40,165 bases of DNA, taken from positions 4,109 through 44,273 of the forward strand of contig QPGA01000028.1 of NCBI GenBank assembly GCA_003332265.1, in the 5' to 3' direction. Shown piece by piece: positions 2,350-23,324 of this stretch (positions within the stretch are counted from its first letter, which is position 1; each line of letters begins with the position of its first letter). The notes under the pieces were generated by a model. That model was not told where the DNA came from. It made no database searches and was given only the letters and a program-made list of their open reading frames with translations. The position numbers were made by a program, and so were the translations under genes. This stretch comes from Candidatus Accumulibacter meliphilus. GTDB lineage: Bacteria; Pseudomonadota; Gammaproteobacteria; Burkholderiales; Rhodocyclaceae.

Positions 2350-2784
2350 GGCTTCGGTCTCGAAAAGCGCTGCGTGGAGAACGGCGAATGGGCACGGATG
2401 GGAGCTTAACGCGCGAGCAGGTGCTTGGTTGGACACGTGGAACAGTTTGTTACACGATTCCTGGCGACTGCTTGCGTGGCGGCATTCTCGTCCACACGCG
2501 CGCCGACCGTTCTGCCGTCGCTTCGGCGTCGGCCGACTTGCCGTTGAGCGGCGTAGTTTCCACCGCGTCGCCGCGCGCACCTCAATGTGAAAGTCGCGCA
2601 AGCGACTCACCAACCTCCCTTCTCCCCTCGCGGGAGAAGGGTCGGGGAAGAGGGGGAGACGGTCATGACTTTCATGATCTGGGGTGTCTCGATTGTCATG
2701 ACCGTTACCGAGCCACGAGCGAGCGTTGCGCGCATCGCCACACGAATATAGACTAGGCGGATGTACAAACATGAGAGATCACCC
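2350..2784. other. Intergenic region between divergent genes, with REP-like hairpin
   Basis: I see no convincing gene here. It should hold the divergent promoters of the FecR/DUF6600-like gene and of vapBC. It contains the REP-like hairpin listed separately. Other short frames in it lack family resemblance. Confidence 0.5.
2617..2656. repeat. REP-like palindromic element, solo copy
   Basis: A perfect 10-base stem (CCCTTCTCCC pairing with GGGAGAAGGG, 5-base loop) at 2617-2641 is followed by a GGGG-rich tail. The same core, as CCCTCTCCC/GGGAGAGGG variants with GGGG(T)CGGGG tails, recurs in inverted pairs at 19731-19890 and 23098-23259. This is a dispersed extragenic palindrome family. Confidence 0.65.
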
Positions 2785-3027
2785 ATGACTACCTCAGCAA
2801 CCGCCAAGATCTTCAAGAATGGCAACTCCCAGGCCGTACGGCTTCCGAAGTCTTTCCAGTTCGATGTGGACGAGGTGGAGATCCTCCGCCGCGGCGACGA
2901 GGTCATCCTGCGCAAGCCACGTCAGAACCTGTCCGAGGCTTTCGATCTGCTGGCCACCATGCCGGACGACTTCTTCGCCGCAGGCCGCGACGACTCGCCG
3001 CCTCAGGATCGGGAGCCCCTGGCATGA
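2785..3027 (+). CDS. vapB: VapB-type antitoxin (AbrB/SpoVT fold)
   Basis: 80-residue protein. The N-terminal half (TAKIFKNGNSQAVRLPKSF) is the swapped-hairpin AbrB DNA-binding signature of VapB antitoxins, followed by an EVEILRRGDEVIL strand. The acidic C-terminal tail would wrap the toxin. An in-frame ATG at 2761 exists, but I prefer 2785 because the AbrB domain begins directly after it and a GAGAG-like ribosome site precedes it. The stop overlaps the start of the downstream PIN toxin in an ATGA, the usual coupling. Expected role: neutralise VapC and autorepress the operon. Confidence 0.9.
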   Translation: MTTSATAKIFKNGNSQAVRLPKSFQFDVDEVEILRRGDEVILRKPRQNLSEAFDLLATMPDDFFAAGRDDSPPQDREPLA

Positions 3028-3437
3028 CCACCCGTTATCTGCTCGATACGGACATCTGTATTTACACGGCTAAAGCTCGGCCGCCGGAAGTGGCCCAACG
3101 CTTGCGGAACTTGACACCCGGCTCGGTGGCCATGTCGGTCGTGACCTTGGGCGAGTTGGTGTTCGGGGCCGAGCGCAGTCAGGCACGTGCGCAGGCCATT
3201 GGGAATTTGGCGCGGCTGGTCGAGCTGATACCGGTCCTGGACCTGCCCGAATCGGCGGGCCGTCACTATGGACGCATACGTGCCGCCCTGACCGCGGCAG
3301 GGACGTCCCTCGGCAACAACGACCTGTGGATCGCCGCCCATGCAGCGGCCGACGCCCTGATCCTGGTCAGTAACAACAGTCGCGAGTTCGAGCACGTGCA
3401 GGGGCTTCAGGTCGAGAACTGGGTCCGTGAGCTGTGA
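3024..3437 (+). CDS. vapC: VapC-type PIN-domain toxin
   Basis: 137-residue PIN-domain protein, full length for the family. It shows the first acidic residue in LLDTD (Asp8), a second in TLGEL (Glu44), the conserved acidic/Asn cluster in GNNDLWIAAHA and the terminal VSNNSREF segment typical of VapC/FitB. Family knowledge: Mg-dependent RNase cutting tRNA or rRNA and inhibiting translation. It overlaps vapB by 4 bases. All visible PIN residues are intact, so the module looks active. It converges on recD with a 26-base gap. Confidence 0.92.
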   Translation: MTTRYLLDTDICIYTAKARPPEVAQRLRNLTPGSVAMSVVTLGELVFGAERSQARAQAIGNLARLVELIPVLDLPESAGRHYGRIRAALTAAGTSLGNNDLWIAAHAAADALILVSNNSREFEHVQGLQVENWVREL

Positions 3438-3463
3438 GCAGGAAACCGTGATCCGCCCCGATT

Positions 3464-5647
3464 TCAATCCCCGCTTTCACCATCCTCCGCCAACAAGCCG
3501 CTCGCACGCAGCACCTGCCTTTGCGCCGCTTCTTCCAGGAGCCTCACGGTTCCCGGCATGGCCACGGTCAGGAAAGCGCGGGCGCGGGTGATGCCGGTGT
3601 ACAGCAGCTCACGGGTCAGGATCGGACTCAGCGTTTCGGGCAGGAGCAGCGCGGCGTGGGTGAATTCCGAGCCCTGCGCCTTGTGAACGGTGAGCGCGTA
3701 CGCTGTTTCCACGGCCTGCAGTCGGCTCGGCAGGATCCATTTGATGCCCTGGCTGGCGTCGCCGGCAGGAAAGGCGACGCGCAGAATCCACTCATCATCG
3801 CTCGCGCCGGGCAGCGCCAGGGTGATGCCGATGTCGCCGTTCATCAGTCCCAGGCCGTAGTCGTTGTGCGTGATCAGCACCGGGCGACCAGGGTACCAGC
3901 CGTCGCTGGCCGGAATCAGACCGGCCTCGTGTAATACGCGCGCGATACGCTGGTTGAGCCCGGCGACGCCCCAGGGCCCGCGCCGCAGCGCGCACAGCAC
4001 CTGGAACTGGCCGTGTGCGCGCAACACTGCACGCGCCCAGTCGTCAAACGCTTCCTGGCTGGCAGCGGGCGCGGGCTGCTGCTCGCGCAGGGTTTCGAGG
4101 TAGTGGCGATAGCCATTGCGCTGCGGCGGCGAGGCCACGGCGGTTGGGTCGCGGTCGGCGTCGACGGTGTTTGCTGTTGCTGCCCTCGCCGGGCCGCCAT
4201 CGACGATCAAGGCGCTGAAGCCAGCCTCGTCGTCATCGTCGCGGCCGCCAAGCGGCAACAGGGCGAGATCGGCATGGGCCTGCTGCCAGAGCCGGCCGAC
4301 CCTGACGGTATCGCCGGCATTGACCGCCTCGGCCAGTTGCCCGATGCCGCTGCGCGCAGAAAAGCGGTGGCTGTGGCGCAGCATCACCACCGCCTGATCG
4401 AGGACACGGCCCGCAACATCAAGCAGCTCCGGCGCCACGCGCTCGCCGCTCGCCTGCTCCAGCCAGTCGCGGGTGGCCGGCGTGTAGTGGCCGTCGCGAG
4501 CACGCTGGCACAGCTCGCCGAGCACCGCCCCGGCCTCGACCGAGGCCAGTTGGTCCTTGTCGCCGAGCAGGATCAAGCGCGCCGAAGGCGGCAGGGCGGC
4601 GAGTACGGCGGCCATCATTTCCAGGTCGACCATCGACGCTTCGTCGATCACCAGCACGTCGAGCGCCAGCGGATTGCCGGCATGGTGGCGAAAGCGGCGG
4701 CTGTCGGGCCGGCTGCCGAGCAGGCGATGCAGGGTGCTCACGGTCACCGGGATTGCCGCGCGCACCGCTTCGCCGTGCGCCAGCGCGGCCAGCGGCAGGC
4801 GGGCAACGGCGTTGGCGATCGACTCGTTGAGGCGGGCCGCAGCCTTGCCGGTCGGCGCCGCCAGGCGGATGCGCAAGGGTCGCGGCGGCTGCTCGGGTGA
4901 TTGCGTGCCCGGTGCCGATTTCAGGGCCACCGCCTGCAGCAGCGCCAGCAAGCTGACCACGGTCGTCGTCTTTCCGGTACCCGGGCCACCGGTGATGATG
5001 CTGAAGCCACTGCGCGCAGCGAGCGCGCAGGCGATCTTCTGCCAGTCAGTGGCGTCAGCCGCAGCCGCAGCCGCAGTCACACCCACGCCCGCAGCCGGCG
5101 CAAAGAGCAGGTCGAGCGTCTGGCGCAGCGCGGCAATCGGCAGCGCTGCCTGCAAACTGCTCGACATTGCCGTGCGGCGCTCGAGCGCGCCGCGCACGTC
5201 CTGCTCGTACTGCCAGTAGCGGCGCAGGTAGAGGCGCCCGCCGACACGCAGCAGCGGCGTATTGCCGGCGCCCGCACCGACCAGCAGCGGCTGCGCAAGC
5301 GCTTGCTGCCACTGGCTGAGGCTCAAGCCGGCGAAGACTTCGGCGGGCAGCGGTGGCGGCTCGAGTGCCTCGACCGGGCTGCTTCCTGCACTGTCCCCTT
5401 CGGGTGGCAGCGACAAGGCGAAAGCCGGTGCTTGCAGCGTCGCTTCGAGATCGAGGCAGGCATGGCCACGCCCAAGCTGATGGCTGGCCAGGGCAGCGGC
5501 GAGGATCAGGAACGGCGGCGCGTCGGGCACTTCACGCCACAGGAAATCGGCAAAGGCGGTATCGAGCGGGCGCAGCCATTGCCGCGCTGCCCAGCTCGCC
5601 AACAGCGCCTGCATTGGCTCGCGGGCGTCGAAGCTGCGTGCATTCAT
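3464..5647 (-). CDS. recD: RecBCD exonuclease V, RecD helicase subunit
   Basis: 727-residue superfamily 1B, 5'-3' helicase; E. coli RecD is about 608. Walker A is GGPGTGKT at 220-227, Walker B is VLVIDEAS, and the late motif VHKAQGSEF is near the C-terminus, so the ATPase core looks intact. The extra length comes from Ala/Pro/Gly-rich linkers (about 85-100 and 185-200) and an acidic insert between motifs. Its ATG overlaps the recB stop by 4 bases, so it is the last gene of recC-recB-recD. Role: with RecB and RecC, processing of double-strand breaks and degradation of linear foreign DNA until Chi is met. Confidence 0.93.
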   Translation of the reverse strand: MNARSFDAREPMQALLASWAARQWLRPLDTAFADFLWREVPDAPPFLILAAALASHQLGRGHACLDLEATLQAPAFALSLPPEGDSAGSSPVEALEPPPLPAEVFAGLSLSQWQQALAQPLLVGAGAGNTPLLRVGGRLYLRRYWQYEQDVRGALERRTAMSSSLQAALPIAALRQTLDLLFAPAAGVGVTAAAAAADATDWQKIACALAARSGFSIITGGPGTGKTTTVVSLLALLQAVALKSAPGTQSPEQPPRPLRIRLAAPTGKAAARLNESIANAVARLPLAALAHGEAVRAAIPVTVSTLHRLLGSRPDSRRFRHHAGNPLALDVLVIDEASMVDLEMMAAVLAALPPSARLILLGDKDQLASVEAGAVLGELCQRARDGHYTPATRDWLEQASGERVAPELLDVAGRVLDQAVVMLRHSHRFSARSGIGQLAEAVNAGDTVRVGRLWQQAHADLALLPLGGRDDDDEAGFSALIVDGGPARAATANTVDADRDPTAVASPPQRNGYRHYLETLREQQPAPAASQEAFDDWARAVLRAHGQFQVLCALRRGPWGVAGLNQRIARVLHEAGLIPASDGWYPGRPVLITHNDYGLGLMNGDIGITLALPGASDDEWILRVAFPAGDASQGIKWILPSRLQAVETAYALTVHKAQGSEFTHAALLLPETLSPILTRELLYTGITRARAFLTVAMPGTVRLLEEAAQRQVLRASGLLAEDGESGD

Positions 5648-12600: not shown

Positions 12601-13322
12601 GCCCGGCCGGCGTTGGAGTGTCCTTCCCGACCCTCACCCTGCCCGCCCGTGCCCCTGTCTACGTGAACCTCTACGTCGGCCAGCAGCGCCCGCCACAGCG
12701 CAGCCTGCCAGCGCTGTTCGTCGGCGAGTGGCGTCTGCTGGCCACGCGCGTCGATCAGCACATCATCGCCCGCCGCCCAGGCCGCCAGCCAGTCGGCGCG
12801 GTACACCTGATACTGATCGAAGAGGTCGGCCAGGCGTTCGGCGAGCTGAAAACGCTTGCGGCGATCGCTGTCCGCAGCCAGAAAACCCAGCAGCGGCGCG
12901 TATTCGGGTGCGCCCATCACCTGCGGCAACAAACGCATCAGACGCCACAACAGCCGCCCCTTGTCGAACGGCGAATTCTCCGGCACCGCCTGCCGCCCAA
13001 GCACTGCGCGATAGACCTGCCACAGGAAACGCGCCGGCAGAGAAATTTCCAGCGCGGCGGCGATGCCGCAACCGCCATGCTCCGCCGGCTCATCGTCATC
13101 GGCATCGCCGTCCGCATCGCCGTCCCGGTCGCCGTCCTTCGCGTCAGCCGCCAGCGCCAGCTTCAGCCACTGCGCGATGCCATTGCTCTGCACGAGAATG
13201 ATCTCGTTCTCCAGCGGCGCCAGCGGATAGCGCCTCATCCATTCAACCACCAGATCGCGCAGCATCTCGGGTTGATTGCCGTGAACGAGCATCAGGCCAG
13301 GGGTCAGGGCGGGCGAGGTCAA
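9609..13322 (-). CDS. recC: RecBCD exonuclease V, RecC subunit
   Basis: 1237-residue RecC, the Chi-recognition subunit with an inactive helicase fold. The N-terminus (MLVHGNQPEMLRDLVVEW, then EIILVQSNGIAQWLKLAL) matches RecC. The start is uncertain. TTG at 13322 has a GGAG six bases upstream. ATG at 13292 (residue 11 here) aligns better with the E. coli N-terminus but has a weak ribosome site. About residues 60-90 hold an Asp/Gly repeat insert (DGDRDGDADGDADDDE). A second, frameshifted copy of the first part of this gene and its leader lies at 21336-21547. Head of the recC-recB-recD operon. Confidence 0.93.
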   Translation of the reverse strand: MTSPALTPGLMLVHGNQPEMLRDLVVEWMRRYPLAPLENEIILVQSNGIAQWLKLALAADAKDGDRDGDADGDADDDEPAEHGGCGIAAALEISLPARFLWQVYRAVLGRQAVPENSPFDKGRLLWRLMRLLPQVMGAPEYAPLLGFLAADSDRRKRFQLAERLADLFDQYQVYRADWLAAWAAGDDVLIDARGQQTPLADEQRWQAALWRALLADVEVHVDRGTGGQGEGREGHSNAGRAAVHEAFLARAGNWPPGEAPAGLPRRVMVFGISSLPRQSLEVLAALGRWTQVLMCVHNPCEHYWADIVADRDLLRRVQARQQRRQGAPMEISEELLHLHAQPLLAAWGKQGRDFIGLLDEHDDEQARARARSQFLAIEQRIDLFKAFGGETLLQQLQDDILELRPVHETIDRWPAVDPARDASIRFHVAHSAQREVEILHDQLLAACNADASLRPRDIIVMVPDIDTYAPHIQAVFGLLEASDPRYLPFSVADQGQRHCDPLVNALEKLLDLPQSRLAVSDLLDLLDVPALRQRFAIAEDELPQLQRWIHGANIRWGLHAEQRASLDLPRQADAAAANTWLFGLRRMLLGYAVGADAAAWRDIEPYDEIGGIDAALLGPLVQLLDTLEASWRMLREPATVAGWCLRLRQLMADFFATDEGGSGGRNASSSSSGDSDDAYTLLQLDIALERWQEACDEAALVETLPLSVVGEYWLSRLDEGSLSQRFFGGVVTFATLMPMRAIPFRRVCLLGMNDGDYPRSRIPMDFDLMVHDYRPGDRSRREDDRYLFLEALLSARESLHISWVGRSINDNSERPPSVLVGQLRDHLAAGWRLAEDANKAAAAGARTSPSTTLLDALTVEHRLQPFSADYFPPQPEASTLFTYSREWRPDAAAGERLPASDALLSPLLREEPLSLQDLGDFLKQPVRAFFRQRLKVSFERDDPLSEDQEPFDLDGLGRWQLQDELIRAQAVALEQGEDLVVAREARLASIQRRGDLPAGGFGEALADDLLAPMDELFTRYQAALARWPLVVEGEEEIRFQARVEGQELELADWLGGIRSDGAGQRGRVVLESSDLVKDGHYRSERLIRHWVRHLALQLAGGPLTTLVLSKVGDVELAAVEAAQAAAHLSVLLAAWHRGMREPLPLAARSAFDFLKGGSDAAGKTYAGAFRPAGEVESDPYLRRAYPDFAALTASGEFFVLAELLLRPLLEAIPAKAKSEAANSERAAKADKTAGATA

Positions 13323-13401
13323 ATCGGGCTCCGGGAACGGGGATCAGGGAAGGTCAGGCAAGGCTCGAAAGATACCCTGGAACGGCAGCGGAGGCCATGC
13401 C
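13190..13401. repeat. recC 5' end, left direct repeat flanking the island
   Basis: About 212 bases (recC codons 1 to about 44 and about 80 bases of leader) recur in the same orientation at 21336-21547 with scattered substitutions and small indels. The two copies bracket the ParD-TIR-MoxR-FGE-TR-FGE island. Confidence 0.85.
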
Positions 13402-13536
13402 GATTGCCCCATGGGGCGCGCGGCATTGAGCTGGGTTGTTTGTGGAACAAGCCCTGCTCTGCCTGGCGCCTTGGTGACTGCGCAAGCGGATGGCGATTGA
13501 CACCCCTGCGGCGGTGGCATAAAAATCGTCGTTACT

Positions 13537-14136: not shown

Positions 14137-15543
14137 ATGGTCAGCGTTTACGTGTCGTACGCCTGGAAAGAGGAAGAACAGAACCGGCTGGTCGACAAGC
14201 TTGAACAGGCGTGCAACGCGCGCGGAATCGAATTGCTCCGAGACAGGAACAAGATTGGTTACGGCGACTCGATCCGGCAATTCATGGACCAGATCGGTGC
14301 CAGCCGGCACGTTGTTCTGGTACTCAGCGAAGCCTACTTCAAGTCCGAGTATTGCATGTACGAGTTGTGTCGGATTCATGATCACGGCGACGTCCGCAAG
14401 CGGGTGAAGCCGCTTGTGCTGACGGGGACGAGCTTCCACAAACCGATCGATCGGGGCCGTTACCTCAAACACTGGGAAACCGAAACGGCCAATCTCGAGA
14501 AGGAGCTTGACGGGCTCACGGACCCCAAGTACACGCTGAAGTTACGCCAGGCCCTCGACGGCTACGCGGACTTCCGTCGACGGATGGACGAGCTCCTTTA
14601 CATGCTCGCCGACATAAACAGCCTGCGTGAGGATGTCCATCTCGATTCAGACTTCGCCGCCCTCCTCGACCGTATCGCGCCACAGTTAACCGGTAAACCG
14701 GACGATCTATTTCGCGCCCGAATCACCGACGAAATTCGCGGCATTCTCGCCGCCAACGCCCGCCTGAGCAACGCTCTGCGAGCGGCACTTCGCGAAGCCG
14801 GTAGGGAGCCATCGTCTGACCTGTCCACGGACCTATGCGCGGAGGACCTCGAACGTGCACTCGAAGACCTGCTGTTTCCGGCAACGAGAAGTTTGCTGGC
14901 TGCGCTCGATTCCCGCCAACCGGAGTTCGCCGACACCTGGGAGGCGGCGAAATCCGTGCTCGCCTGGTTGGCCCTGCTCGCCGTGGATAGCGCGTGCCTC
15001 GGACAGGCGGAGAGAAGCGCTCTTGCGACAGGCAGACTGGGTTTTGAAATCGTCGTCGAGACCCCTCTCGGTGTTGAACTGGTCAGTTCCCGCTACCGCC
15101 AGATCGCCCCCAGGCTGCGCGTGCCGAAGGGCAACTCCGACGTTGTCGGAAAAGAATTGATTCCGGAGCCGTCATACGAAACCGGCTGGGGAGAGGACGC
15201 CGCGCTCGCCGCACTGCTGCTCGAGATCTGGGCACACGTTTTCCCCGAAGAGCTGCGCTCGGCGCTATCAGCGCACGACTTGCGCAAGCTGAACAGCGCA
15301 CTGCGTATTCGCGACAAGCAGAAAACCCACCACCATTACATTCCGGTTCCGGCCGAGCAGGCATCGCGACTTTGCCGGCCTGACTTCTACCGGAAACTCC
15401 TGGATAAACTACCGGCGATCAAGGTGATCTTTTTCAGATCCTCGGGCGGCCCTCCGGCCCTCCTGGTGAGTGATGAAATTGATTTGATGATGATCATTCG
15501 AGAATTCCTGACCATTCCCGACAACCTGGCCCAAAGACGATGA
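14137..15543 (+). CDS. TIR-domain effector protein
   Basis: 468 residues. Residues 1 to about 130 are a TIR domain: VSVYVSYAWKEEE at the start, a DRNKIGYGDSIRQFM segment, VVLVLSEAYFKS, then EYCMYELCRI. Glu76 in the CMYEL motif is in the position of the catalytic glutamate of NAD-consuming TIRs. A segment ending DVHLDSDFAALLDRI (to about 185) resembles the tail of bacterial TIR_2 domains. Residues about 190-468 match no domain I can name. The start is supported by GGGAGGG. The stop overlaps the MoxR ATG in ATGA, so the TIR is coupled to MoxR and FGE1. Inference: TIR is the toxic effector (NAD depletion or signal nucleotide) of a conflict system triggered through its neighbours. Confidence 0.85.
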   Translation: MVSVYVSYAWKEEEQNRLVDKLEQACNARGIELLRDRNKIGYGDSIRQFMDQIGASRHVVLVLSEAYFKSEYCMYELCRIHDHGDVRKRVKPLVLTGTSFHKPIDRGRYLKHWETETANLEKELDGLTDPKYTLKLRQALDGYADFRRRMDELLYMLADINSLREDVHLDSDFAALLDRIAPQLTGKPDDLFRARITDEIRGILAANARLSNALRAALREAGREPSSDLSTDLCAEDLERALEDLLFPATRSLLAALDSRQPEFADTWEAAKSVLAWLALLAVDSACLGQAERSALATGRLGFEIVVETPLGVELVSSRYRQIAPRLRVPKGNSDVVGKELIPEPSYETGWGEDAALAALLLEIWAHVFPEELRSALSAHDLRKLNSALRIRDKQKTHHHYIPVPAEQASRLCRPDFYRKLLDKLPAIKVIFFRSSGGPPALLVSDEIDLMMIIREFLTIPDNLAQRR

Positions 15544-16520
15544 ACGCCACAGCCATACCCGAAATCACCCTCGACTCGATTCCCCTGCCCCCACGCGGCT
15601 CCTGGCCGGAGTCAGTGCACTGCTTCGACGAAGAATCCGCCTGGGCAGTGCGCGCCGCGCTGGCGGCGCAGCGCCCCTTGCTGGTGCGCGGCGAACCGGG
15701 CTCGGGCAAAAGCCAGTTGGCGCGCGCGGCGGCCCAGGTACTGGAACGACTGTTCGTCGCCGAGGTGGTGCACGCGCGCAGCGATAGCCAGGATCTGCAG
15801 TGGCGCTTCGACGCACTCGGCCGGCTTGGCGACGCTCAGGCGATGGGCGCTGGCAGCCACACGCACGAGGAAGTCCGGCAGCGCCTGGCGCAGCGCAACT
15901 ACCTCAGCCCCGGCGCGCTGTGGTGGGTTTTCGACTGGCAGTCGGCGCTGGCGCAACACCAGCGCGGCGGTCAACAGAGCGCGCAACCGCAGCCACCGCC
16001 CGGCTGGACGCCCGACAACGGCAGCGTGCTGCTGATCGACGAGATCGACAAGGCCGAGGCCGACCTGCCCAACGGCCTGCTCGAAACACTCGGCAACGGC
16101 GCCTTCACCGTCCCCTGGCTGGAGCAGCCGGTCAGCACGCCGGCGGGAACGCCTACGCCGCTGGTGGTGATCACCACCAACGAGGAGCGCGAACTGCCGG
16201 CGGCCTTCGTGCGCCGCTGCCTGGTGCTAAACCTGCAACTGCCCAGGGAGCAGGAAGACTTCATCGCGACGCTGACCGCCCGCGGCAGACTGCATTTCGG
16301 CGAACGCTGCGCCACCGAGGTGTACCAGGAAGCGGCCGGACAGCTGTGGCAAGACCGCCAGGCGGCCGAGGACCAGGGCCTGCAGGGCGCCGGCCAGGCC
16401 GAGTACCTCGACCTGCTGCGCGTCGTCGTGACCCTCGCCCCCGAACCGCAGAACCAATCGGAGCTGCTCGGCAAGGTGCAAGGCTTCGCGCTCCGGAAAC
16501 ACCCGCCCACCGCCGGATGA
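15540..16520 (+). CDS. MoxR-family AAA+ ATPase
   Basis: 326 residues. Walker A GEPGSGKS at 51-58, Walker B VLLIDEID at about 163-170, sensor-1 ITTNEERELP at 211-220 and an arginine-finger region AAFVRRC at 221-227. These are the marks of a complete MoxR-like AAA+ core. Family knowledge: such ATPases act as chaperone or remodelling partners of vWA proteins and are the central NTPase of ternary conflict systems. It overlaps its neighbours by 4 bases on both sides (ATGA at 15540 and 16517). Inference: it transduces the signal between the FGE-containing sensor and the TIR effector. Confidence 0.9.
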   Translation: MNATAIPEITLDSIPLPPRGSWPESVHCFDEESAWAVRAALAAQRPLLVRGEPGSGKSQLARAAAQVLERLFVAEVVHARSDSQDLQWRFDALGRLGDAQAMGAGSHTHEEVRQRLAQRNYLSPGALWWVFDWQSALAQHQRGGQQSAQPQPPPGWTPDNGSVLLIDEIDKAEADLPNGLLETLGNGAFTVPWLEQPVSTPAGTPTPLVVITTNEERELPAAFVRRCLVLNLQLPREQEDFIATLTARGRLHFGERCATEVYQEAAGQLWQDRQAAEDQGLQGAGQAEYLDLLRVVVTLAPEPQNQSELLGKVQGFALRKHPPTAG

Positions 16521-19510
16521 AGCGCGCGACGCTGCAAACGCGGGCAGCGGTCGGCCGCGCCGACCTGTTGCGCGTCTATGCCGAACACGGCGAGCAGGCG
16601 CTCGAACTCGCGGCGCTGGCGCTCGGTTACGGGCGACAGCAGGCGATGGACACCATTCCCTGTACCGCTGCTACCGCCACCGCCTCAGGCGTGCGCGCCA
16701 CCATCATCTCAGGCCCACCCCCACTCCCCGAGCGCCCGCCAACCCTGCCCGCCGCGCGTTTCTTCCACGTCACCGAGCACTTGCAATCCGACCCGCCGCC
16801 GGGAGCCGGCCCCGAGGCACCCGACTGGCTGGCGCGCGCCCGCGCACTCGCCGACGACACCTGCCCGGCTCCGGGTTCGGTGCGCTTCCCCGCGCGCCAG
16901 CCGCTGACCCGCTGGTCGCGCCTATGGCCCTTCCTGCGCAGCGCGCTGGGGCAAACCGTCGCGTCGCGCCAACCCGATCTGCCGCGCCTGCTCGACCGCC
17001 TGACGCGCGGCGAGGTGCTGCGTGCGATCCCGATGCTCAGGCGCCACGGCTGGAGCCCGCGCATCGCCATCCTCTCCGACCACAGTCGGCAGACTGTCCC
17101 CTTTCACGGCGACTTCAGCGCACTCAACCACGCCATCGAACGGCGCCACGGCAAGCTCGGGCTTGAGCGGTACATCCTCCACGGCGAGCCCGGCACCCAG
17201 CCGCAGGTGCGCAAGCCCCTGCACAGCGCCACACAGCGCTGGCAGCTGCGGGCGGCCACGACGCCGCTGTTGATCCTCAGTGACCTCGGGCTGATCGACG
17301 GCGCCCCCGAAACGTTGCGCGGCTGGCAGCAATTCGGCGGCCGCCTGCGCAGCGCAGGGTGTCCGGCGCTGGTCCTCTGCCCCGTGCCCGCGCGCCTGCA
17401 CCCCGCCAGCCTGCAGCGCTACTTCGAGATCGTCGAATGGGACCGCCACAGCCCGCTGCGCCGCTCCCTGACGCAAGTCGCCAGCGATGCCGGCGCCACA
17501 GGCGGACAGGCGGAGCACTCAGCCGACAAACTGCTTAGCCTGCTCGCACCTGCAGTCCTCGTCGAACCAACGCTGCTGCGCGCCATTCGCCACCTGCTCC
17601 CGGCAAGGGAAGCCGACGTGCTCGCCGAGGCGCTGGCCTGGCAGCATCCCGACGTACAGTCCGGCGCGCTGGGCTTCCAGTTTGCCGGCGCCGCCGCAAT
17701 CGAGAAATACCAGCGCAAGTTCGCCGAGCTACCGCCGCCACAGCAGGAGGCTGCCGTCCGCCTGATCGTCACCCACCACGCCGGCCTGCCCGAATCGGTC
17801 CGCCTCGGCGAACTCGCTACCAGCCAGCGACTGGCGCCGCACTGCGCGCTCGCCCGCGACGCCCGGCTCGTCGAGCGCTGGCAGCACGACATCGCCAGGA
17901 CCGCGCTCGAACACCCCGACTCAGCAGCCCTGCAACAGTGGCTAAACCGCCATATCGGCCGCCAGACCGGCGCCATGTTCGCCGACAACGAGGCGCTGGC
18001 CGCACTCTGGGCGCTCGCGCAGCGCCAGCGGCTGACCGAGGGCGAAGTACTCGAACTGCCACCCGGAGTTCAGCAGCAGGAGGTGGCCTTCTTTCTCCGG
18101 CCCGAGCCGGCCCGCCATCCGGTCCGCTGCAGGCTGCGCCAGCGCGGCCAGGAGTTGCGACTCGAAGTGCTGACCGATGGCACCGATGGCACCGCAGCGG
18201 ACAACGCCAGCCCCTACGCCGAGCTGACGCTGGTCGACGGCGGCGTTTTCGTTCGCGTCACGCAGCTTGGCGAGGCCGCGTCAGACGGCAGCAACACCGA
18301 AGCCAGCGCCGGCGCCCCGCTGCGCTACATCGCCGCCGAGTCTTTGCCGCAGACCATCGCCCGGCTCGGACCCGACATCGAGCGCGTCGAACTGCGCAGC
18401 GAGCACCTCGAACTCTCCATCAGCGCGCTCACCAGGCCAGCGTGGGCGAAGGCGATCGGCCGCGACGCGCGCGGGCTGTTCGCCGAAGTGGACTGGCTGG
18501 AGCAGCGTTGCCGGCTCGACTGGCAGCCGCCGCAGCCGGGGCAGACCGAACAGTCCGAACAACGCGGGCAGTCCGGTCGCTGGACCAGCGAGCAGCCGCT
18601 CGGCGTCGATCGCTACGGACTGTTCGCCGAGATCGCCGTCGCCGGTGTCAGCCAGCGCTTCCGCTGGATGGCGCCTGGGCATTTCCTGATGGGTTCGCCA
18701 CCCGAAGAGCCGGAGCGCGAGGACGACGAAGTACAGCACGAAGTGAGGCTGAGCCGCGGCTTCTGGCTCGCCGACACCACCTGCACCCAGGCGCTGTGGC
18801 AGGCAGTGACCGGCGCCAACCCGAGCGAGTTCCAGGACGACGTTCGCAACCCGGTCGAGAACGTCAGCTGGAACGACGTGCAGACTTTCCTCAGCGAGCT
18901 GAACCGGCGCGTGCCGGGGCTGCAGGCGCGGCTGCCGAGCGAAGCGGAATGGGAATACGCCTGCCGCGCGGGGACGACAACGCCCTTTTCGTTCGGCGAC
19001 AAGATCACCCCGGAGCAGGTCAACTACAACGGCAACCAGCCCTACGCGGGCGCCGAAAAAGGCCTGTATCGGCAGAAGACGATGCCGGTCGGCTCCCTGC
19101 CGGCAAACCCCTGGGGGCTTTACGAAATGCACGGCAACGTCTGGGAGTGGTGCGCCGACTGGTATGGCGATTACCCCAGCACGCCGCAGGTCGATCCGAC
19201 TGGCCCGCAGACAGGCGACTCCCGCGTGTTGCGCGGCGGCTCGTGGTTCTACCTCGGCGGGTTCGCGCGTTGTGCCTTCCGCTTCGGTTACGTGCCCGAC
19301 GACCGCGGCCGGCACATCGGGTTCCGGTTCGCCCCAGGTCAAAGCGGGCCGGCGGAGCCGGCGGGGCGGGTTTCGGAGAAGTCGCTGGCGGAGCCGGCGA
19401 CTTTGCGGTCGGGGCCGGCGGAGCCGGCCCCGACCGCGCGGCTGGCTGGCAGCGGCGGTACGCCGCCAACGTTGACGGAACGTATCAAGCGCTGGTTCAA
19501 GGACCGATGA
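16517..19510 (+). CDS. Large conflict-system protein with C-terminal FGE/C-type-lectin domain, DGR target 1
   Basis: 997 residues from the ATG overlapping the MoxR stop; an upstream extension of this frame only reads the MoxR gene out of frame. Residues about 175-290 (AILSDHS, LLILSDLGLIDG, ALVLCPVP) resemble a Rossmann/vWA-like fold with a degenerate metal site, a tentative call. Residues about 290-700 are unassigned. Residues about 710-941 are an FGE-sulfatase (SUMF1/EgtB/PvdO) domain: RWMAPGHFLMGSPPEEP, RLPSEAEWEYACRAGT, WGLYEMHGNVWEWCADW and terminal IGFRFAPG. Residues about 899-941 are variable repeat VR1. The Gly/Pro/Ala-rich tail ends WFKDR. Inference: sensor or ligand-binding component whose surface is diversified; not a formylglycine-generating enzyme. 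Coupled downstream to the accessory gene by ATGA at 19507. Confidence 0.85.
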   Translation: MKRATLQTRAAVGRADLLRVYAEHGEQALELAALALGYGRQQAMDTIPCTAATATASGVRATIISGPPPLPERPPTLPAARFFHVTEHLQSDPPPGAGPEAPDWLARARALADDTCPAPGSVRFPARQPLTRWSRLWPFLRSALGQTVASRQPDLPRLLDRLTRGEVLRAIPMLRRHGWSPRIAILSDHSRQTVPFHGDFSALNHAIERRHGKLGLERYILHGEPGTQPQVRKPLHSATQRWQLRAATTPLLILSDLGLIDGAPETLRGWQQFGGRLRSAGCPALVLCPVPARLHPASLQRYFEIVEWDRHSPLRRSLTQVASDAGATGGQAEHSADKLLSLLAPAVLVEPTLLRAIRHLLPAREADVLAEALAWQHPDVQSGALGFQFAGAAAIEKYQRKFAELPPPQQEAAVRLIVTHHAGLPESVRLGELATSQRLAPHCALARDARLVERWQHDIARTALEHPDSAALQQWLNRHIGRQTGAMFADNEALAALWALAQRQRLTEGEVLELPPGVQQQEVAFFLRPEPARHPVRCRLRQRGQELRLEVLTDGTDGTAADNASPYAELTLVDGGVFVRVTQLGEAASDGSNTEASAGAPLRYIAAESLPQTIARLGPDIERVELRSEHLELSISALTRPAWAKAIGRDARGLFAEVDWLEQRCRLDWQPPQPGQTEQSEQRGQSGRWTSEQPLGVDRYGLFAEIAVAGVSQRFRWMAPGHFLMGSPPEEPEREDDEVQHEVRLSRGFWLADTTCTQALWQAVTGANPSEFQDDVRNPVENVSWNDVQTFLSELNRRVPGLQARLPSEAEWEYACRAGTTTPFSFGDKITPEQVNYNGNQPYAGAEKGLYRQKTMPVGSLPANPWGLYEMHGNVWEWCADWYGDYPSTPQVDPTGPQTGDSRVLRGGSWFYLGGFARCAFRFGYVPDDRGRHIGFRFAPGQSGPAEPAGRVSEKSLAEPATLRSGPAEPAPTARLAGSGGTPPTLTERIKRWFKDR
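19212..19337 (+). repeat. DGR variable repeat VR1
   Basis: 126 bases aligning without gaps to the template repeat at 20050-20175. By my count 20 of 21 substitutions fall on TR adenines (29 adenines available); the one exception is the third base of the AGG codon that became GGT. Flanking non-adenine positions, including the last 25 bases, are identical. Codons changed are mostly AAC in the TR, here Phe, Tyr, Leu, Gly, Asp and His, giving an aromatic-rich surface. Confidence 0.95.
19348..19362 (+). promoter_or_regulatory. Hairpin downstream of VR1
   Basis: GCCGGC-GGA-GCCGGC forms a 6-base stem with a 3-base loop, 10 bases after the end of VR1. The same hairpin at the same distance follows VR2 (21148-21162) and, one base further on, VR3 (22743-22757), but not the TR. 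In the BPP-1 phage DGR a small hairpin just downstream of VR stimulates homing; this is the likely counterpart. Confidence 0.6.
19405..19437 (+). repeat. Perfect 15-base stem hairpin in the FGE1 tail
   Basis: Left arm 19405-19419 and right arm 19423-19437 are perfectly complementary, with loop GGA. It contains the same GCCGGC-GGA-GCCGGC core as the VR hairpins. Only a partial version remains in gene 2. It lies inside coding sequence; no T-run follows, so it is not a standard terminator. Confidence 0.7.
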
Positions 19511-19932
19511 GATACCATTTCTTCACCATCGAAGCGCTGCAGCCAGCGACCGGCGAAGAAGCGCTGAACGCTTTCTGCGCCGGGCATCGCGTCGTCTCGG
19601 TCGACCGGCACTTCGTCGACCAGGGCGCGAGCAGTTATTGGAGCCTCTGCGTGGCGACCGTCGACGGCGCCGATCCCGCGCGCAGCGCGCCCCCATCGCA
19701 AGGCCTCGCCGATCACCTCCCAGCCCGCTCACTCCCCTCGCCCCTTGTGGGAGAGGGGTCGGGGGAGAGGGGAAATCCGACCATCGCCGACCAACACCAT
19801 GACGCACCGGGAGCGCTCACCTGCCAGGGTCTTGTTGCTACATCTGCACGTGGCCCTCTCCCCAACCCCTCTCCCGCGAGGGGCGAGGGGCTTTGTCAGC
19901 TGGACGCAACCGGCGCAGGCGGTCGAAAATGA
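19507..19932 (+). pseudogene. Truncated DGR accessory protein (HRDC-type), copy 1
   Basis: 141-codon frame starting in an ATGA overlap with FGE1. Residues 1 to about 58 (FFTIEALQPATGEEALNAFC, then HRVVSVDRHFVDQGASSYWS, LCVATVDG) match from memory the N-terminal part of the HRDC-domain accessory protein that lies between target gene and reverse transcriptase in many DGRs. After about codon 60 the frame runs into the REP pair at 19731-19890 and the rest is read-through. The HRDC domain is therefore missing. A second copy at 22875 is cut at the same place. It could make a short protein, but I treat it as a remnant. Confidence 0.7.
19731..19890. repeat. Inverted REP-like pair interrupting the accessory gene, copy A
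   Basis: Two GGGGAGAGGG-type palindromic arms (about 19731-19772 and 19852-19890) face each other across about 80 bases. Nearly the same structure and spacer lies at 23098-23259 in the second accessory gene. The solo element at 2617 shares the core. Confidence 0.75.
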
Positions 19933-19993
19933 CCTTGGCTGCGGCGCCGTGCGACGCGGACGCGAAACGCGGTGCCCGGGCTGCCCGAAACGC

Positions 19994-19999
19994 TACAAT
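19994..19999 (+). promoter_or_regulatory. Candidate -10 box for the TR transcript
   Basis: TACAAT lies about 50 bases before the TR. I see no good -35 box at the expected distance, so this is weak support for an independent template RNA promoter. Confidence 0.25.
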
Positions 20000-20049
20000 G
20001 CAGCCACCGGCCGGTTTTGTGGCAGGTGCAGCAGAAAGGGCGGTCATCG

Positions 20050-20175
20050 CAGGCGACTCCCGCGTGTTGCGCGGCGGCTCGTGGAACAACAACGGCAGGA
20101 ACGCGCGTTGTGCCAACCGCAACAGGAACGAGCCCGACAACCGCAACCAGAACATCGGGTTCCGGTTCGCCCCAG
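20050..20175 (+). repeat. DGR template repeat (TR)
   Basis: Non-coding-style copy of the VR with runs of AAC codons (29 adenines in 126 bases). It aligns without gaps to VR1 and VR2, and 37 of 39 combined differences are at TR adenines. It begins with the shared CAGGCGACTCCCGCG and ends with the shared GGTTCCGGTTCGCCCCAG; identity breaks right after. It is preceded by no FGE body, which shows it is a template rather than a gene end. Family knowledge: TR RNA is reverse transcribed with errors at A and the cDNA replaces the VR. Confidence 0.95.
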
Positions 20176-20317
20176 CTCAGGCGTCGCAAGTGGCGACTCT
20201 TGACCAGATGACCTTCCTGTCCGCCGCTTTGCGGCGGCAAAAAGCCAATGCCCTTCGGCAGGCTGGTAGGCGACGCGCCGAACGCCCGCCGAAGCGGCGC
20301 CTTGACGGAATCTGCTG
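20176..20317 (+). ncRNA. Putative 3' spacer of the DGR template RNA
   Basis: 142 bases between TR and the next gene with no coding sign but strong pairing potential: CCGCCGC-TTT-GCGGCGG at about 20219-20235, and CTTCGGC/GCCGAAG arms further on. In the BPP-1 DGR a spacer of roughly this length downstream of TR folds with the reverse transcriptase to prime cDNA. Assignment by position and structure only. Confidence 0.35.
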
Positions 20318-21235
20318 ATGCCCGGCATAACCCTCGACCCCGCTGTCGCCTTCTTCCCCGACCCTTTCCCGGAACCCTGGGCAAGCGACTGGGGCGAGGA
20401 TGACCTTGGCCTGTGGATGGGCATGACCCTCGGCGAAGTGCGCCAGGTCTTCCGCTGGATCGCGCCGGGCCGTTTCCTGATGGGCTCGCCACCCGAGGAG
20501 CCCGAGCGCGAGGAGCGCGAGGACCGCGAGGTTCAGCACGCAGTGAGGCTGAGCCGCGGCTTCTGGCTCGCCGACACCGTCTGCACCCAGGCGCTGTGGC
20601 AGGCGGTAACCGGCGCCAACCCGAGCCACTTCAAGGACGACGCGCGCAACCCGGTCGAGAGCGTCAGCTGGGACGACGTACAGGCCTTTCTCAGCGAACT
20701 GAACCGCCGTGTGCCGGCGCTGCAGGCGCGGCTGCCGAGCGAGGCCGAATGGGAATACGCCTGCCGCGCGGGGACGACAACCCCCTTCTCCTTCGGCGAC
20801 AACATCACCCCCGAGCAGGTCAACTACGACGGCAACCAACCCTACGCCGGTGGCGAAAAAGGCCTGTATCGGCAGAAGACAGTGCCGGCCGGCTCGCTGC
20901 CGGCAAACCCCTGGGGGCTTTATGAAATGCACGGCAACGTCTGGGAGTGGTGCGCCGACTGGGATGGCGATTACCCCAACACGCCGCAGGTCGATCCGAC
21001 TGGCCCGCAAACTGGCGGCTCCCGCGTGTTGCGCGGCGGCTCGTGGAACAGCTTGGGCAGGTACGCGCGTTGTGCCGACCGCCTCGGGAACGAGCCCGGC
21101 GTCCGCTACCGGGGCATCGGGTTCCGGTTCGCCCCAGGTCAAAGCGGGCCGGCGGAGCCGGCGGGGCGGGTTTCGGAGAAGTCGCTGGCGGAGCCGGCCC
21201 CGACCGCGCGGCTGGCCGGACAGCCGAGAAAATAG
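20318..21235 (+). CDS. FGE-domain protein, DGR target 2
   Basis: 305 residues. A short lead (about 1-44, LDPAVAFFPDPFPEPWASDW, ending MTLGEVRQVFRWIAPG) precedes one FGE-sulfatase/C-type-lectin-fold domain (about 45-272) nearly identical to that of the 997-residue protein: RFLMGSPPEEPEREEREDRE, RLPSEAEWEYACRAGT, MHGNVWEWCADW, IGFRFAPG. Residues about 232-274 are variable repeat VR2. The tail ends earlier than in gene 1 (ARLAGQPRK). No signal peptide, no N-terminal vWA-like region. The start has only a weak GACGGAA ribosome site. Inference: stand-alone binding module, perhaps a decoy or second sensor for the TIR-MoxR system, or a donor for gene conversion of gene 1. Confidence 0.85.
   Translation: MPGITLDPAVAFFPDPFPEPWASDWGEDDLGLWMGMTLGEVRQVFRWIAPGRFLMGSPPEEPEREEREDREVQHAVRLSRGFWLADTVCTQALWQAVTGANPSHFKDDARNPVESVSWDDVQAFLSELNRRVPALQARLPSEAEWEYACRAGTTTPFSFGDNITPEQVNYDGNQPYAGGEKGLYRQKTVPAGSLPANPWGLYEMHGNVWEWCADWDGDYPNTPQVDPTGPQTGGSRVLRGGSWNSLGRYARCADRLGNEPGVRYRGIGFRFAPGQSGPAEPAGRVSEKSLAEPAPTARLAGQPRK
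21012..21137 (+). repeat. DGR variable repeat VR2
   Basis: 126 bases aligning without gaps to the TR. By my count 17 of 18 substitutions are at TR adenines; the exception is the third base of one AAC that became TTG. Two changes lie in the left part (TR A at 20051 and 20056), so diversification reaches the left end of the repeat. VR2 differs from VR1 at most variable sites, so the two were diversified independently. Confidence 0.95.
21148..21162 (+). promoter_or_regulatory. Hairpin downstream of VR2
   Basis: GCCGGC-GGA-GCCGGC, 10 bases after VR2, identical to the one after VR1. Confidence 0.6.
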
Positions 21236-21665
21236 CGGAAATAGCGGAAATAGGGGACGCACCACGGTTCTCCCGAACCAGGATCGCGTTCATAAAGTGC
21301 AAAATCAAGGTCAAAGCCGTGTTCTATCCCGAATCGCACCAGAATGATCTCGTTCTCCAGCCGCGCCAGCGGATAGCGTTTCATCCATTCAACCACCAGA
21401 TCGTGCCGCATCTCGGGTTGATTGCGTGAACGAGCATCAGGCCATGGGTCAGGGCGGGAAGGGTCAAATCGGGCTTCGGGAACGGGGATCAGGTAAAGCT
21501 CACGCGAGACTCGAAAGATAACTTGGAAGGGCAGCGGAAGCTATGCCTATGGCCACCCTCGAGCGCGTTGCCTTGCCCTGGATTGCGTCGCTTCGCTCGC
21601 CATGACCGCTCGCGCCGTAGCCATGCCACCCGTTCGCCCGCGCCACGCCGCAGCCCTTCACACCG
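21236..21665. other. Intergenic stretch after FGE2
   Basis: The only recognisable content is the recC 5' copy at 21336-21547. I see nothing convincing in 21236-21335 or 21548-21665. Confidence 0.5.
21336..21547 (-). pseudogene. Displaced copy of the recC 5' end
   Basis: Same orientation as recC. It includes the leader, the TTG start region and about the first 44 codons, then stops abruptly at the codons for ENEIILV. One base is missing where recC reads CACGGCAAT, which shifts the frame between LMLVH and the LVVEWMKRYPLARLENEIIL part. The copy cannot encode RecC. It forms the right direct repeat flanking the island that begins upstream of recC. Confidence 0.85.
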
Positions 21666-21889: not shown

Positions 21890-22210
21890 CTACGCCTCGA
21901 ATCCCAACAGGCTCCACCAGTCGCTGGCCGCGTGCAGCACGCGCACGATGCTCACGCCGCCAGGGCGCGGCTCGTAGAACACCAGATGATTGTCGAAATC
22001 CCTGACCTGCCATTTGCGCATGCCCGCCAGGTCAGGATGCTTGAGCGTTACCGGTGCGCCCAGCATAGGCTGCCGCGCCAGGTCGGTGAAGCTGGCTTCG
22101 GCGCGGCTCAGGAAGCGTTCGGCCACCGCCAGCCCGGCGTTTTCGGCCAGATAGAGGAAGTGCTCCACCAAGTCGTGCCGCGCCGCCGCGCGCTTGGTGA
22201 CCGGCGGCAT
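21890..22210 (-). CDS. parE: ParE/RelE-family toxin
   Basis: 106 residues, usual for ParE. RAAARHDLVEHFLYLAENAG at the start and the terminal strand HLVFYEPRPGGVSIVRVLHA, ending in SDWWSLL, are typical ParE/RelE features. The ATG overlaps the antitoxin stop in ATGA. Family knowledge: ParE toxins inhibit gyrase; RelE relatives cut mRNA. Which activity applies cannot be told here. Intact, so this module could stabilise the region. Confidence 0.85.
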   Translation of the reverse strand: MPPVTKRAAARHDLVEHFLYLAENAGLAVAERFLSRAEASFTDLARQPMLGAPVTLKHPDLAGMRKWQVRDFDNHLVFYEPRPGGVSIVRVLHAASDWWSLLGFEA

Positions 22211-22470
22211 CAGCGCGGGTTCTTGCGCACTTCGACCTTAGCCAAGGCTTCCCTGCGGATCGCGCTCCAGTCCGCCGCGGTCAGTTCACTTTCAGCGCCA
22301 CTCAAGCCTTCCAACAGTTTCGCTTCGAGTTGTTCTTCGGCTTTGCGTTTCTCGTCGGCGCGGATCAGCTCGCACACATATTCGCTCACGCTGCTGTAAC
22401 GGCCTTGGGCAATCTGTCCATCCACGAACTGCTTCAAGGGGTCGGGCAGCGAAATATTCATGCTTTGCAT
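22210..22470 (-). CDS. parD: ParD-type antitoxin
   Basis: 86 residues from the ATG at 22470, chosen because AGGAGGT lies five bases upstream; a longer open frame extends to 22905 but has no family support. MNISLPDPLKQFVDGQIAQG and YSSVSEYVCELIRADEKRK are the ribbon-helix-helix and linker of ParD antitoxins. The C-terminal helix covers about residues 45-80. It is coupled to the toxin gene by ATGA. Confidence 0.87.
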   Translation of the reverse strand: MQSMNISLPDPLKQFVDGQIAQGRYSSVSEYVCELIRADEKRKAEEQLEAKLLEGLSGAESELTAADWSAIRREALAKVEVRKNPR

Positions 22471-22483
22471 GGCACACCTCCTT

Positions 22484-22502
22484 TTGCCACTTAAAGTGCC
22501 AC
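22484..22502. promoter_or_regulatory. Candidate operator of parDE
   Basis: TGCCACTTAAAGTGCCA is a near-perfect palindrome (CACTT-A-AAGTG core) just upstream of the parD ribosome site, the usual position for ParD autorepression. Confidence 0.45.
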
Positions 22503-22610
22503 AAACGACAGGAACTGGCAATAACTGCCATTTCATGGCGCTCTCGATCTTGATCTCGCTCGCGTATGCGCGGCAGCAGGCCAGGCATCGGTGCACCGCG
22601 CCCAGAGCTG

Positions 22611-22665: not shown

Positions 22666-22731
22666 TGTGCCAACCGCGGCAGGGATGAGCCCGACGAGCG
22701 CTACGTCAGCATCGGGTTCCGGTTCGCCCCA
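22666..22731 (+). repeat. Partial variable repeat VR3
   Basis: Aligns to the right half of the TR. Seven differences are at TR adenines and four are not (two of them in the CAG codon that became GTC). The excess of non-adenine changes fits a retired VR that is decaying normally. Confidence 0.75.
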
Positions 22732-22742
22732 CATCAAAGAGG

Positions 22743-22757
22743 GCCGGCGGAGCCGGC
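22743..22757 (+). promoter_or_regulatory. Hairpin downstream of VR3
   Basis: GCCGGC-GGA-GCCGGC, 11 bases after VR3 ends; the third copy of the post-VR hairpin. Confidence 0.5.
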
Positions 22758-22874
22758 GGGTCGCGTTGCGGAGAAGCCGCGGGCGGAGCCGGCGACTTTG
22801 CGGTCGGGGCCGGCCGGCCGCGGCGGTACGCCGCCGACGCTGAGGGAACATCTCAGGCGCCAGTTCAAGGACCG

Positions 22875-23324
22875 ATGAAATTCCATTTCTTAACCATCGA
22901 AACACTGCAGCCAGCGACCCGCGAAGAAGCGCTGAACGCTTTCTGCGCCGGGCATCGCGTCGTCTCGGGCAATCGGCACTTCGTCGACCAGGGCGCGAGC
23001 AGTTATTGGAGCCTCTGCGTGGCGACCGTCGACGGCGCCGATCCAGCCCGCCACACCCCCCATCGCAAGGCCTCGCCGATCACCTCCCAGCCCGCTCACT
23101 CCCCTCGCCCCTTTTCCGAGAGGGGTTGGGGGAGAGGGGAAGTCCCACCATCGCCGCCCAACACCACGACGCACCGCGAGCGCTCACTTGCCAGGATGTT
23201 GTCGCCACATCTGCACGTGGCCCCCTCTCCCCAACCCCTCTCCCACAAGGGGCGAGGGGCTTTGTCGCCTGGACGCAACTGGCGAAGGCGGTCGGAAATA
23301 AGCTTGGCTGCGGCCCGCATCTGA
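22875..23324 (+). pseudogene. Truncated DGR accessory protein (HRDC-type), copy 2
   Basis: 149-codon frame beginning in ATGA with the FGE3 stop. Residues 1 to about 58 are nearly identical to copy 1 (HFLTIETLQPATREEALNAF, HFVDQGASSYWSLCVATVDG), then the frame enters a REP pair at the same point. The remaining codons differ from copy 1 because of a frame shift in the repeat. The HRDC domain is absent. The shared truncation shows the FGE-tail/accessory/REP block was duplicated after the gene was broken. Confidence 0.7.
23098..23259. repeat. Inverted REP-like pair, copy B
   Basis: Arms at about 23098-23140 and 23218-23259 with a spacer closely matching the pair at 19731-19890. Confidence 0.75.

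Follow-up and report, generated by a model that had tools for sequence, protein, structure and literature searches.

How does a diversity-generating retroelement (DGR) come to carry an almost clean mutational signature at a locus with no reverse transcriptase (RT) gene of its own? The question is raised by a stretch of 40,165 nucleotides from Candidatus Accumulibacter meliphilus (assembly GCA_003332265.1, contig QPGA01000028.1, positions 4,109 to 44,273 of the forward strand; hereafter the window, on contig C41 of our numbering), in which a template repeat (TR) is found together with two variable repeats, VR1 and VR2, situated in two genes for FGE-fold proteins, FGE1 and FGE2. The locus bears a genuine footprint of a DGR, of a kind already known and in a degraded state. 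Very probably it is a genuine cassette of the order target1(VR1)-accessory-[RT]-TR-target2(VR2), from which the RT and the HRDC half of the accessory gene have been lost; a rewriting of the repeats after this truncation is no part of that claim and is weighed separately below. The observations are an adenine-specific TR-VR pattern, the anatomy of the cassette in sister species, the loss of the RT and of the HRDC half, and a structured RNA element 3' of the TR. The positions of all features are collected in Table 1.

The gapless alignment of the TR with VR1 spans 126 bases and has 21 differences, 20 at TR adenines (12 A>T, 6 A>G and 2 A>C) and one at a G. With 29 adenines among 126 bases the chance of at least 20 of 21 differences falling on A is 2.9e-12. 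The TR and VR2 differ at 18 bases, 17 of which are at A (P 2.0e-10), and in each pair 1 of the 97 non-A sites is changed. AAC codons take 16 of the 20 adenine changes of VR1 and 12 of the 17 of VR2. The preliminary description of this DNA had reported the same count and the same positions for the VR1 pair, had assigned most of the differences to AAC codons, and had proposed the alignment of the three repeats with counts by template base; our recount agrees with it, and the differences are not spread evenly over A, C, G and T, which that description had named as evidence to the contrary. In the target frame the TR adenines occupy codon positions 1 and 2 for 27 of the 28 counted. A stop codon is unreachable from any whole TR codon via an A>N change, and about 5e15 proteins can be reached from the TR by such changes. 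The VR sits in frame at the C-terminus of a target of C-type-lectin (CLec)/FGE type, with codons avoiding stops; out of 41 residues 14 differ between the TR and VR1, 12 between the TR and VR2 and 13 between VR1 and VR2. The attribution to a DGR acting on an FGE/CLec C-terminus, made in the preliminary description, fits the adenine specificity, the C-terminal FGE/CLec domain and the TR-VR pairing. The same adenine bias is present in the four sister genomes where the TR is paired with both VRs: their TR copies are 85-91% identical to that of the window, and the eight TR-VR pairs have 0-2 non-A differences each. When both strands of the window are scanned without gaps, the match of the TR that ranks next is a 3' VR fragment (VR3), which is considered below.

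The cassette of the sister species has the order target1-HRDC-RT-TR-target2 and is present in six sister genomes. Homology of the window to these six ends at 19667-19683 and restarts at 20021-20038, 12-29 bases before the TR (in G203 the left homologous part is split into two pieces). Where the window has this gap, the relatives have the HRDC half of the accessory together with a DGR-type RT. Over residues 1-61 the accessory remnant of the window shares 64% identity with its G205 counterpart, whose HRDC domain lies at residues 80-145 (Pfam 7e-18). The segment which replaces the lost part carries two copies of a dispersed palindromic repeat, at about 19734-19777 and 19854-19892, and this repeat makes up most of the 69 matches listed in the genome. 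Rfam miRNA matches at 19740-19884 were rejected, being far below the gathering scores and located on the palindromic repeat. No convincing trace of an RT or an HRDC domain is found in the window (scattered tblastn matches, E 0.07 or worse). A scan of 19500-20350 for sigma-70-type promoters gave none, which says little for this organism.

The cognate RT is also absent from the assembly of the own genome (G000), where the query found only the RTs of contigs C27 (37% identity) and C99 (32-38%). A complete DGR accessory was not found there either: the accessory query recovers two truncated N-terminal copies, an HRDC part on C1 (31%, E 4.6e-8, in a 370-aa frame) and one match at E 0.16. RT fragments on C47 and C36, in pieces or with stops, were found with the C99 RT as the query. 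With its own RT and the HRDC half of the accessory lost, the window copy is a degraded cassette, not a complete DGR. The preliminary description had stated that the FGE1 surface was diversified by this TR. This holds for the past; since the cassette is without its own RT, the pattern shows past diversification by this TR and does not show present activity.

Absence of any DGR RT from the genome and from its relatives had been named as a second kind of contrary evidence, and such RTs are present in both: two at other loci of the own genome and an intact-looking one in three sister cassettes. The C99 locus comprises an RT, a TR and two VRs, both of which match the TR at 91/91 non-A sites with 19 adenine changes each. 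The C27 locus comprises a bAvd-type accessory, an RT, a TR and a VR, with a match at 86/90 non-A sites and 16 adenine changes. Both RTs are open frames. The TRs of C99 and C27 differ from the window TR at many non-A sites, and neither is the template of VR1 or VR2; the next best match of the window TR at RT-bearing loci of the own genome is 83% over 96 bases. An RVT_1 match of 35 bits was also seen inside a 1913-aa open frame (L061, C87:4460-5113), on a contig which also carries FGE pieces.

The state of the RT was followed through the sister species. Among 28 Accumulibacter genomes searched, seven have the RNA element at >100 bits, and in three of them (G205, G203 and G217) the HRDC and RT frames look whole, with YMDD; Pfam supports HRDC and RVT_1 in G205 and RVT_1 in G217. 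In G202 an HRDC-RT fusion frame is accompanied by a TR six bases short. The RT is broken or absent in the own genome, G209 and G212: G209 has a broken RT together with an inserted transposase-like gene (a weak Y1_Tnp match, E 0.0094, below the Pfam cut-off), and G212 has an internal deletion with no RVT_1 match left. In G211, whose element is weaker (71.9 bits), the transposase-like insertion of G209 seems, on inspection by eye, to recur after the same point of the HRDC gene; neither an RT in this genome nor a TR beside its element was found. In a second cassette type the RT is internally deleted in G158, and that of G209 C100 is truncated before the catalytic part. RT loss is recurrent in this cassette. 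The G205 RT, searched against named genomes, found five loci, in Candidatus Accumulibacter iunctus and vicinus, a Methylococcales bacterium, Nitrosomonas sp. Nm51 and a Planctomycetota bacterium.

Decay of the TR-VR pairs was compared with one 90-base measure for all cassettes. A YMDD motif is present in 11 of them, and 18 of their 20 listed pairs differ at 0 or 1 non-A sites, the exceptions being G214 (3/71) and G202 (8/70, with the shortened TR). RT-deficient cassettes may be equally clean, as in the window (1/69 and 1/69) and G209 C177 (0/69 and 0/69), or intermediate, as in G209 C100 (2/69) and G212 (0/70 and 7/71). Pairs with more than 8 non-A mismatches are unlisted, so that strongly decayed VRs are under-counted, and 3 of the 18 cassettes surveyed gave no pair (L138, L151 and L205, of which L138 and L151 are outside the RT classing). 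As RT-deficient cassettes range from clean to decayed, a clean pattern alone is no proof of activity.

The element between the TR and FGE2 is conserved, shows covariation and occurs with the cognate RT group. Its mean column identity among seven species is 94%; for 20176-21011, which comprises the element and FGE2 up to VR2, the identity of the own genome to the others is 74-79%. In 18 sequences 93.1% of 481 cells are paired vs 78.0% in shuffles, and both-sided changes occur in 21 of 27 pairs vs 9.2 in shuffles; with slid controls pairing drops to 33-52%. The alignment behind these counts had been fitted to the structure; in the raw MAFFT alignment of the seven, both-sided changes occur in just 4 of 38 pairs. 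The element model further scores 57 bits in the DGR locus of the Methylococcales bacterium and 31 bits in that of Nitrosomonas sp. Nm51. Of the 18 surveyed cassettes, which do not include the window, 15 have the element behind a TR which pairs with at least one VR at ≤8 non-A mismatches. A wider model finds it in five Accumulibacter cassettes outside the training set (G213, two in G018, G220 and G206) at E 3.3e-6 or better, the same cassettes being weak under the first model (E 0.018 to 0.33). With the wider model the C99 locus has no match better than E 0.9, and that away from its TR, and the C27 locus none up to E 10. In the genome-wide search 145 of the 1872-3991 candidates of each genome were scored, and weaker members picked up by local scans were missed, so absences in this search are not firm. 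Rfam has no family at 20202-20302, and no sign of the element was seen in the accessible text of the literature searched on DGR accessories and template RNA structure.

In the own genome the long hairpin of the element keeps all pairs but one, where A-C replaces A-U. Private changes in 98 element columns number 3 in G000, 4 in G217, 2 in G203, 6 in G212, 1 in G209 and none in G205 and G202. This rate test gives no acceleration in G000, a result that is no proof of constraint after the loss; when the long hairpin is taken by itself, G000 has the highest number of private changes (3, vs 2, 1 and 0 elsewhere). On the model of the Bordetella spacer, which is described as recruiting the RT-Avd complex (PMC12875486), the element may be the handle of the RT on its template and may recruit the enzyme. 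The TR RNA with its structured 3' element was very probably copied by a cognate HRDC-associated DGR RT, and random bases were placed opposite the TR adenines during copying. On this reading the cDNA then replaced VR1 and VR2 and diversified the C-type-lectin tips of two FGE-fold proteins, tips which presumably bind antigens.

The time of the last rewriting is approached through a partial duplicate of the cassette downstream of FGE2. It carries the 3' half of a decayed VR (VR3), a second accessory N-terminus and a second copy of the replacing segment with the same accessory-to-palindrome junction, and it differs from the first copy at 45 of 493 aligned bases (9%; 22666-23314). VR3 differs from the TR at 7 of 18 A sites and 5 of 49 non-A sites. 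At equal rates the probability of one TR-VR difference or none is 0.0014; the TR has no private non-A change (P 0.012 at equal rates). Three of the five non-A differences of VR3 are bases of sister TRs, such an alternative existing at 13 of the 49 sites (P 0.008, in a test of five sites only). At TR position 101 the base of VR3 is the one present in all five sister TRs, and the TR, VR1 and VR2 share a derived base. This pattern fits a change of the TR that followed the duplication and was subsequently transferred to both VRs, the accessory being already cut. That VR1 and VR2 were last rewritten after the accessory truncation, and that the RT then came from elsewhere, is a claim we put just short of an even chance. 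An unassembled cognate RT or RT-bearing kin would have been the source. RT supply in trans is possible; that the locus is an RT-free receiver cassette, consisting of the TR RNA and two sensor genes, with a trans-supplied RT and the 3' element as its handle, is a more doubtful proposal which we retain as tentative.

Several points weigh against this account of the cassette and of its late rewriting. The own genome is 90.9% complete, so the absence of the cognate RT is not final. RT-deficient cassettes do decay: G158 has 5/67 and 8/67 non-A mismatches and in G211 no TR was found beside the element, so that a general rescue in trans does not occur. A single duplicate and the assumption of equal rates underlie the clock argument, and in the accessory part 9 of the 10 changes are on the branch of the duplicate and 1 on the first copy (copy A), a skew that may reflect selection on copy A, a fast duplicate (copy C) or later recombination. 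An RT-bearing lineage could, moreover, have acquired the RT-less segment at a later time through recombination. Both copies share the segment as far as 19945, 75 bases before homology to relatives resumes, and the RT loss could therefore postdate the loss of the HRDC half. Finally, the resident DGR RTs of C99 and C27 sit at loci where the element was not found.

The strongest competitor of late rewriting is a recently frozen DGR, in which the cognate RT wrote VR1 and VR2 in cis and was then deleted, or exchanged through recombination for an RT-less allele, leaving the locus silent and starting to decay. It is a substantial possibility, somewhat under an even chance. RT lesions are common in this cassette among Accumulibacter genomes, G158 and G211 illustrate older losses, and the absence of the cognate RT from the assembly is as expected; yet the truncated accessory and the replacing segment predate the 9% diverged duplicate, and the TR has no private non-A change and the VRs one each, while VR3 looks to carry an older template signature. 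Diversification in trans by a resident DGR RT, that of C99 or C27 using the window TR, is unlikely. Both enzymes are open frames with VRs that match their own TRs at nearly all non-A sites, and trans action between loci has been argued for Thiohalocapsa sp. PB-PSB1 in the text of PMC10907252; against this stand their low identity to the cognate RT, the divergence of their TRs from the window TR and the 3' element not found there. Loss of the RT from the contig through assembly collapse at the palindromic repeat is very improbable, and as the sole cause it was rejected: the repeat is indeed dispersed in the genome, but the second, 9% diverged copy has the same junction and the cognate RT is on no other contig. 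Divergence of paralogous FGE C-termini via ordinary mutation, recombination or positive selection can be dismissed in spite of the abundance of FGE genes in the own genome (23 matches), as the adenine specificity (P 3e-12 and 2e-10) contradicts it, and the TR lies outside both FGE target genes and is paired with VRs likewise in sister species.

Table 1. Features of the degraded DGR cassette, its partial duplicate and the genes upstream of it (positions in the window)
Feature	Position	Strand	Evidence or remark
TIR-domain protein, 468 aa, probable effector, first in overlapping operon	14137..15543	+	Pfam TIR_2 E 5.5e-14
AAA ATPase, 326 aa, probably MoxR-like	15540..16520	+	Pfam AAA_5 E 3.2e-11
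FGE1, target 1: long N-terminal extension and C-terminal FGE/CLec domain	16517..19510	+	
VR1, in FGE1	19212..19337	+	Alignment to TR
Accessory N-terminal 57 aa, cut before HRDC domain	19507..19677	+	Frame continues to 19932
Segment in place of HRDC half and whole RT, ~340 bp	19684..20020	+	Sister homology break
Conserved 5' flank of TR	20021..20049	+	Sister-species homology
TR	20050..20175	+	126 bases, 29 adenines, 10 AAC codons in VR frame
Structured RNA element, 101 bases, two hairpins, second ~50 nt	20202..20302	+	Conservation, folding, covariation
FGE2, target 2: short FGE/CLec-only protein, 305 aa	20318..21235	+	FGE-sulfatase E 2.4e-45, residues 47-272
VR2, in FGE2	21012..21137	+	Alignment to TR
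VR3, 3' half of decayed VR in partial cassette duplicate	22666..22732	+	Alignment to TR
Second, drifting accessory N-terminal copy	22875..23045	+	10/171 differences to 19507-19677
Second copy of RT-replacing segment, up to 19945 of first	23051..23314	+	29/262 aligned bases differ

The two targets are of unequal length: VR1 sits close to the end of the long FGE1, and FGE2 consists of hardly more than its FGE domain, which VR2 closes. In FGE1 the FGE-sulfatase domain (E 5.6e-48) covers residues 957-1178 of a 1236-residue frame which opens at 15800; the start codon given in Table 1 was picked by overlap, and the frame has a single stop, at its end. Its N-terminal extension (16517-18640) has no Pfam match, to a vWA or VMAP component or otherwise. 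The best solved-structure sequence match of FGE2 is 2y3c, the variable protein of Treponema denticola, in the same C-terminal region. The TIR, AAA and FGE1 genes are in overlapping frames, with the AAA ATPase directly upstream of FGE1 and the TIR effector domain nearby. The locus descriptions in PMC10907252, from which the label 'MoxR-like' is borrowed, give for RT clade 5A a MoxR-like ATPase, an extended target with an unannotated N-terminus, a short CLec target and a TIR or peptidase nearby, the N-terminal extensions taking the place of vWA. This likeness of layout, which is not a tree, suggests that the window locus may belong to clade 5A, and FGE1 is probably the sensor of a TIR/MoxR-type conflict system.

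The own genome has 23 FGE-domain matches, several of which end frames of ~1000 aa; three are TR stretches and some are fragments. An FGE remnant with a stop (L064, C2:142742-143014), whose end matches the window TR at 85/97 non-A sites, looks from its sequence like a dead VR. Elsewhere in the window two ~220-base copies, 81-93% identical by piece, lie 8.1 kb apart (13190-13408 and 21336-21554), two adjoining small frames of 106 and 98 aa on the minus strand (21890-22588) resemble by eye a toxin-antitoxin pair of ParE/ParD type, and short-repeat arrays with 6-base steps occur near the window start, at 51-224 and 711-903.

The closest known relative of the locus is that of Ca. Accumulibacter iunctus UBA2327 (DDUX01000037.1; its RT is a 100% match to that of G205). 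It shares the order of two FGE/CLec targets, TR and element, with a TR 91% identical and adenine-specific VRs, and, unlike the window, it has between VR1 and the TR an HRDC accessory that is complete and an RT of 337 aa with YMDD. DGRs have already been noted in this genus (PMC10907252, PMC3521204). Thiohalocapsa sp. PB-PSB1, in the loci described by Dore et al. 2024 (PMC10907252), is similar in having several DGRs per genome with MoxR/TIR-type conflict-system neighbours, in the one long and one short CLec target of clade 5A, and in the replacement of the RT genes of DGR 4 and 5 by MITE-like repeats, a published precedent of the RT-less state, for which trans action is argued there. In contrast to the window, the VRs of these two RT-less DGRs are reported to match the TR of another, complete locus (PMC10907252); the window locus has kept a TR of its own, and none of the TRs at RT-bearing loci of its genome matches it. 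The DGR of T. denticola, as presented in PMC4891356, has likewise an HRDC accessory and an FGE-fold target (2y3c), and leftover target genes are reported for strains without RT, as at the window; unlike it, nine isolates have the complete core, and the leftover strains are described as having no identified RT or TR. The DGR of Bordetella phage BPP-1, in the account of PMC12875486, shares a TR RNA with a structured 3' region and A-to-N mutagenic retrohoming. It differs in having Avd and not an HRDC accessory, and a structured spacer between TR and RT; in the window the TR comes after the site of the RT, with the element placed between the TR and the second target.

The loss of the own RT, the loss of the HRDC half and the 3' RNA element are additions to the preliminary description. 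An RT-less state with clean TR-VR pairs, a graded loss of the RT among sister species and a covarying RNA element lift the locus above a routine DGR. DGRs are mostly sought through their RT, and cassettes without one are therefore easily missed; the search in the T. denticola paper (PMC4891356) also went via the RT. The RNA element is a way to find TRs without an RT. The conserved element gives HRDC-type DGRs a candidate structure for recognition by the RT, comparable to the Bordetella spacer, and the sister species, in which the RT is intact, fused, broken or gone, form a natural series for trans action and for the speed at which a DGR dies.

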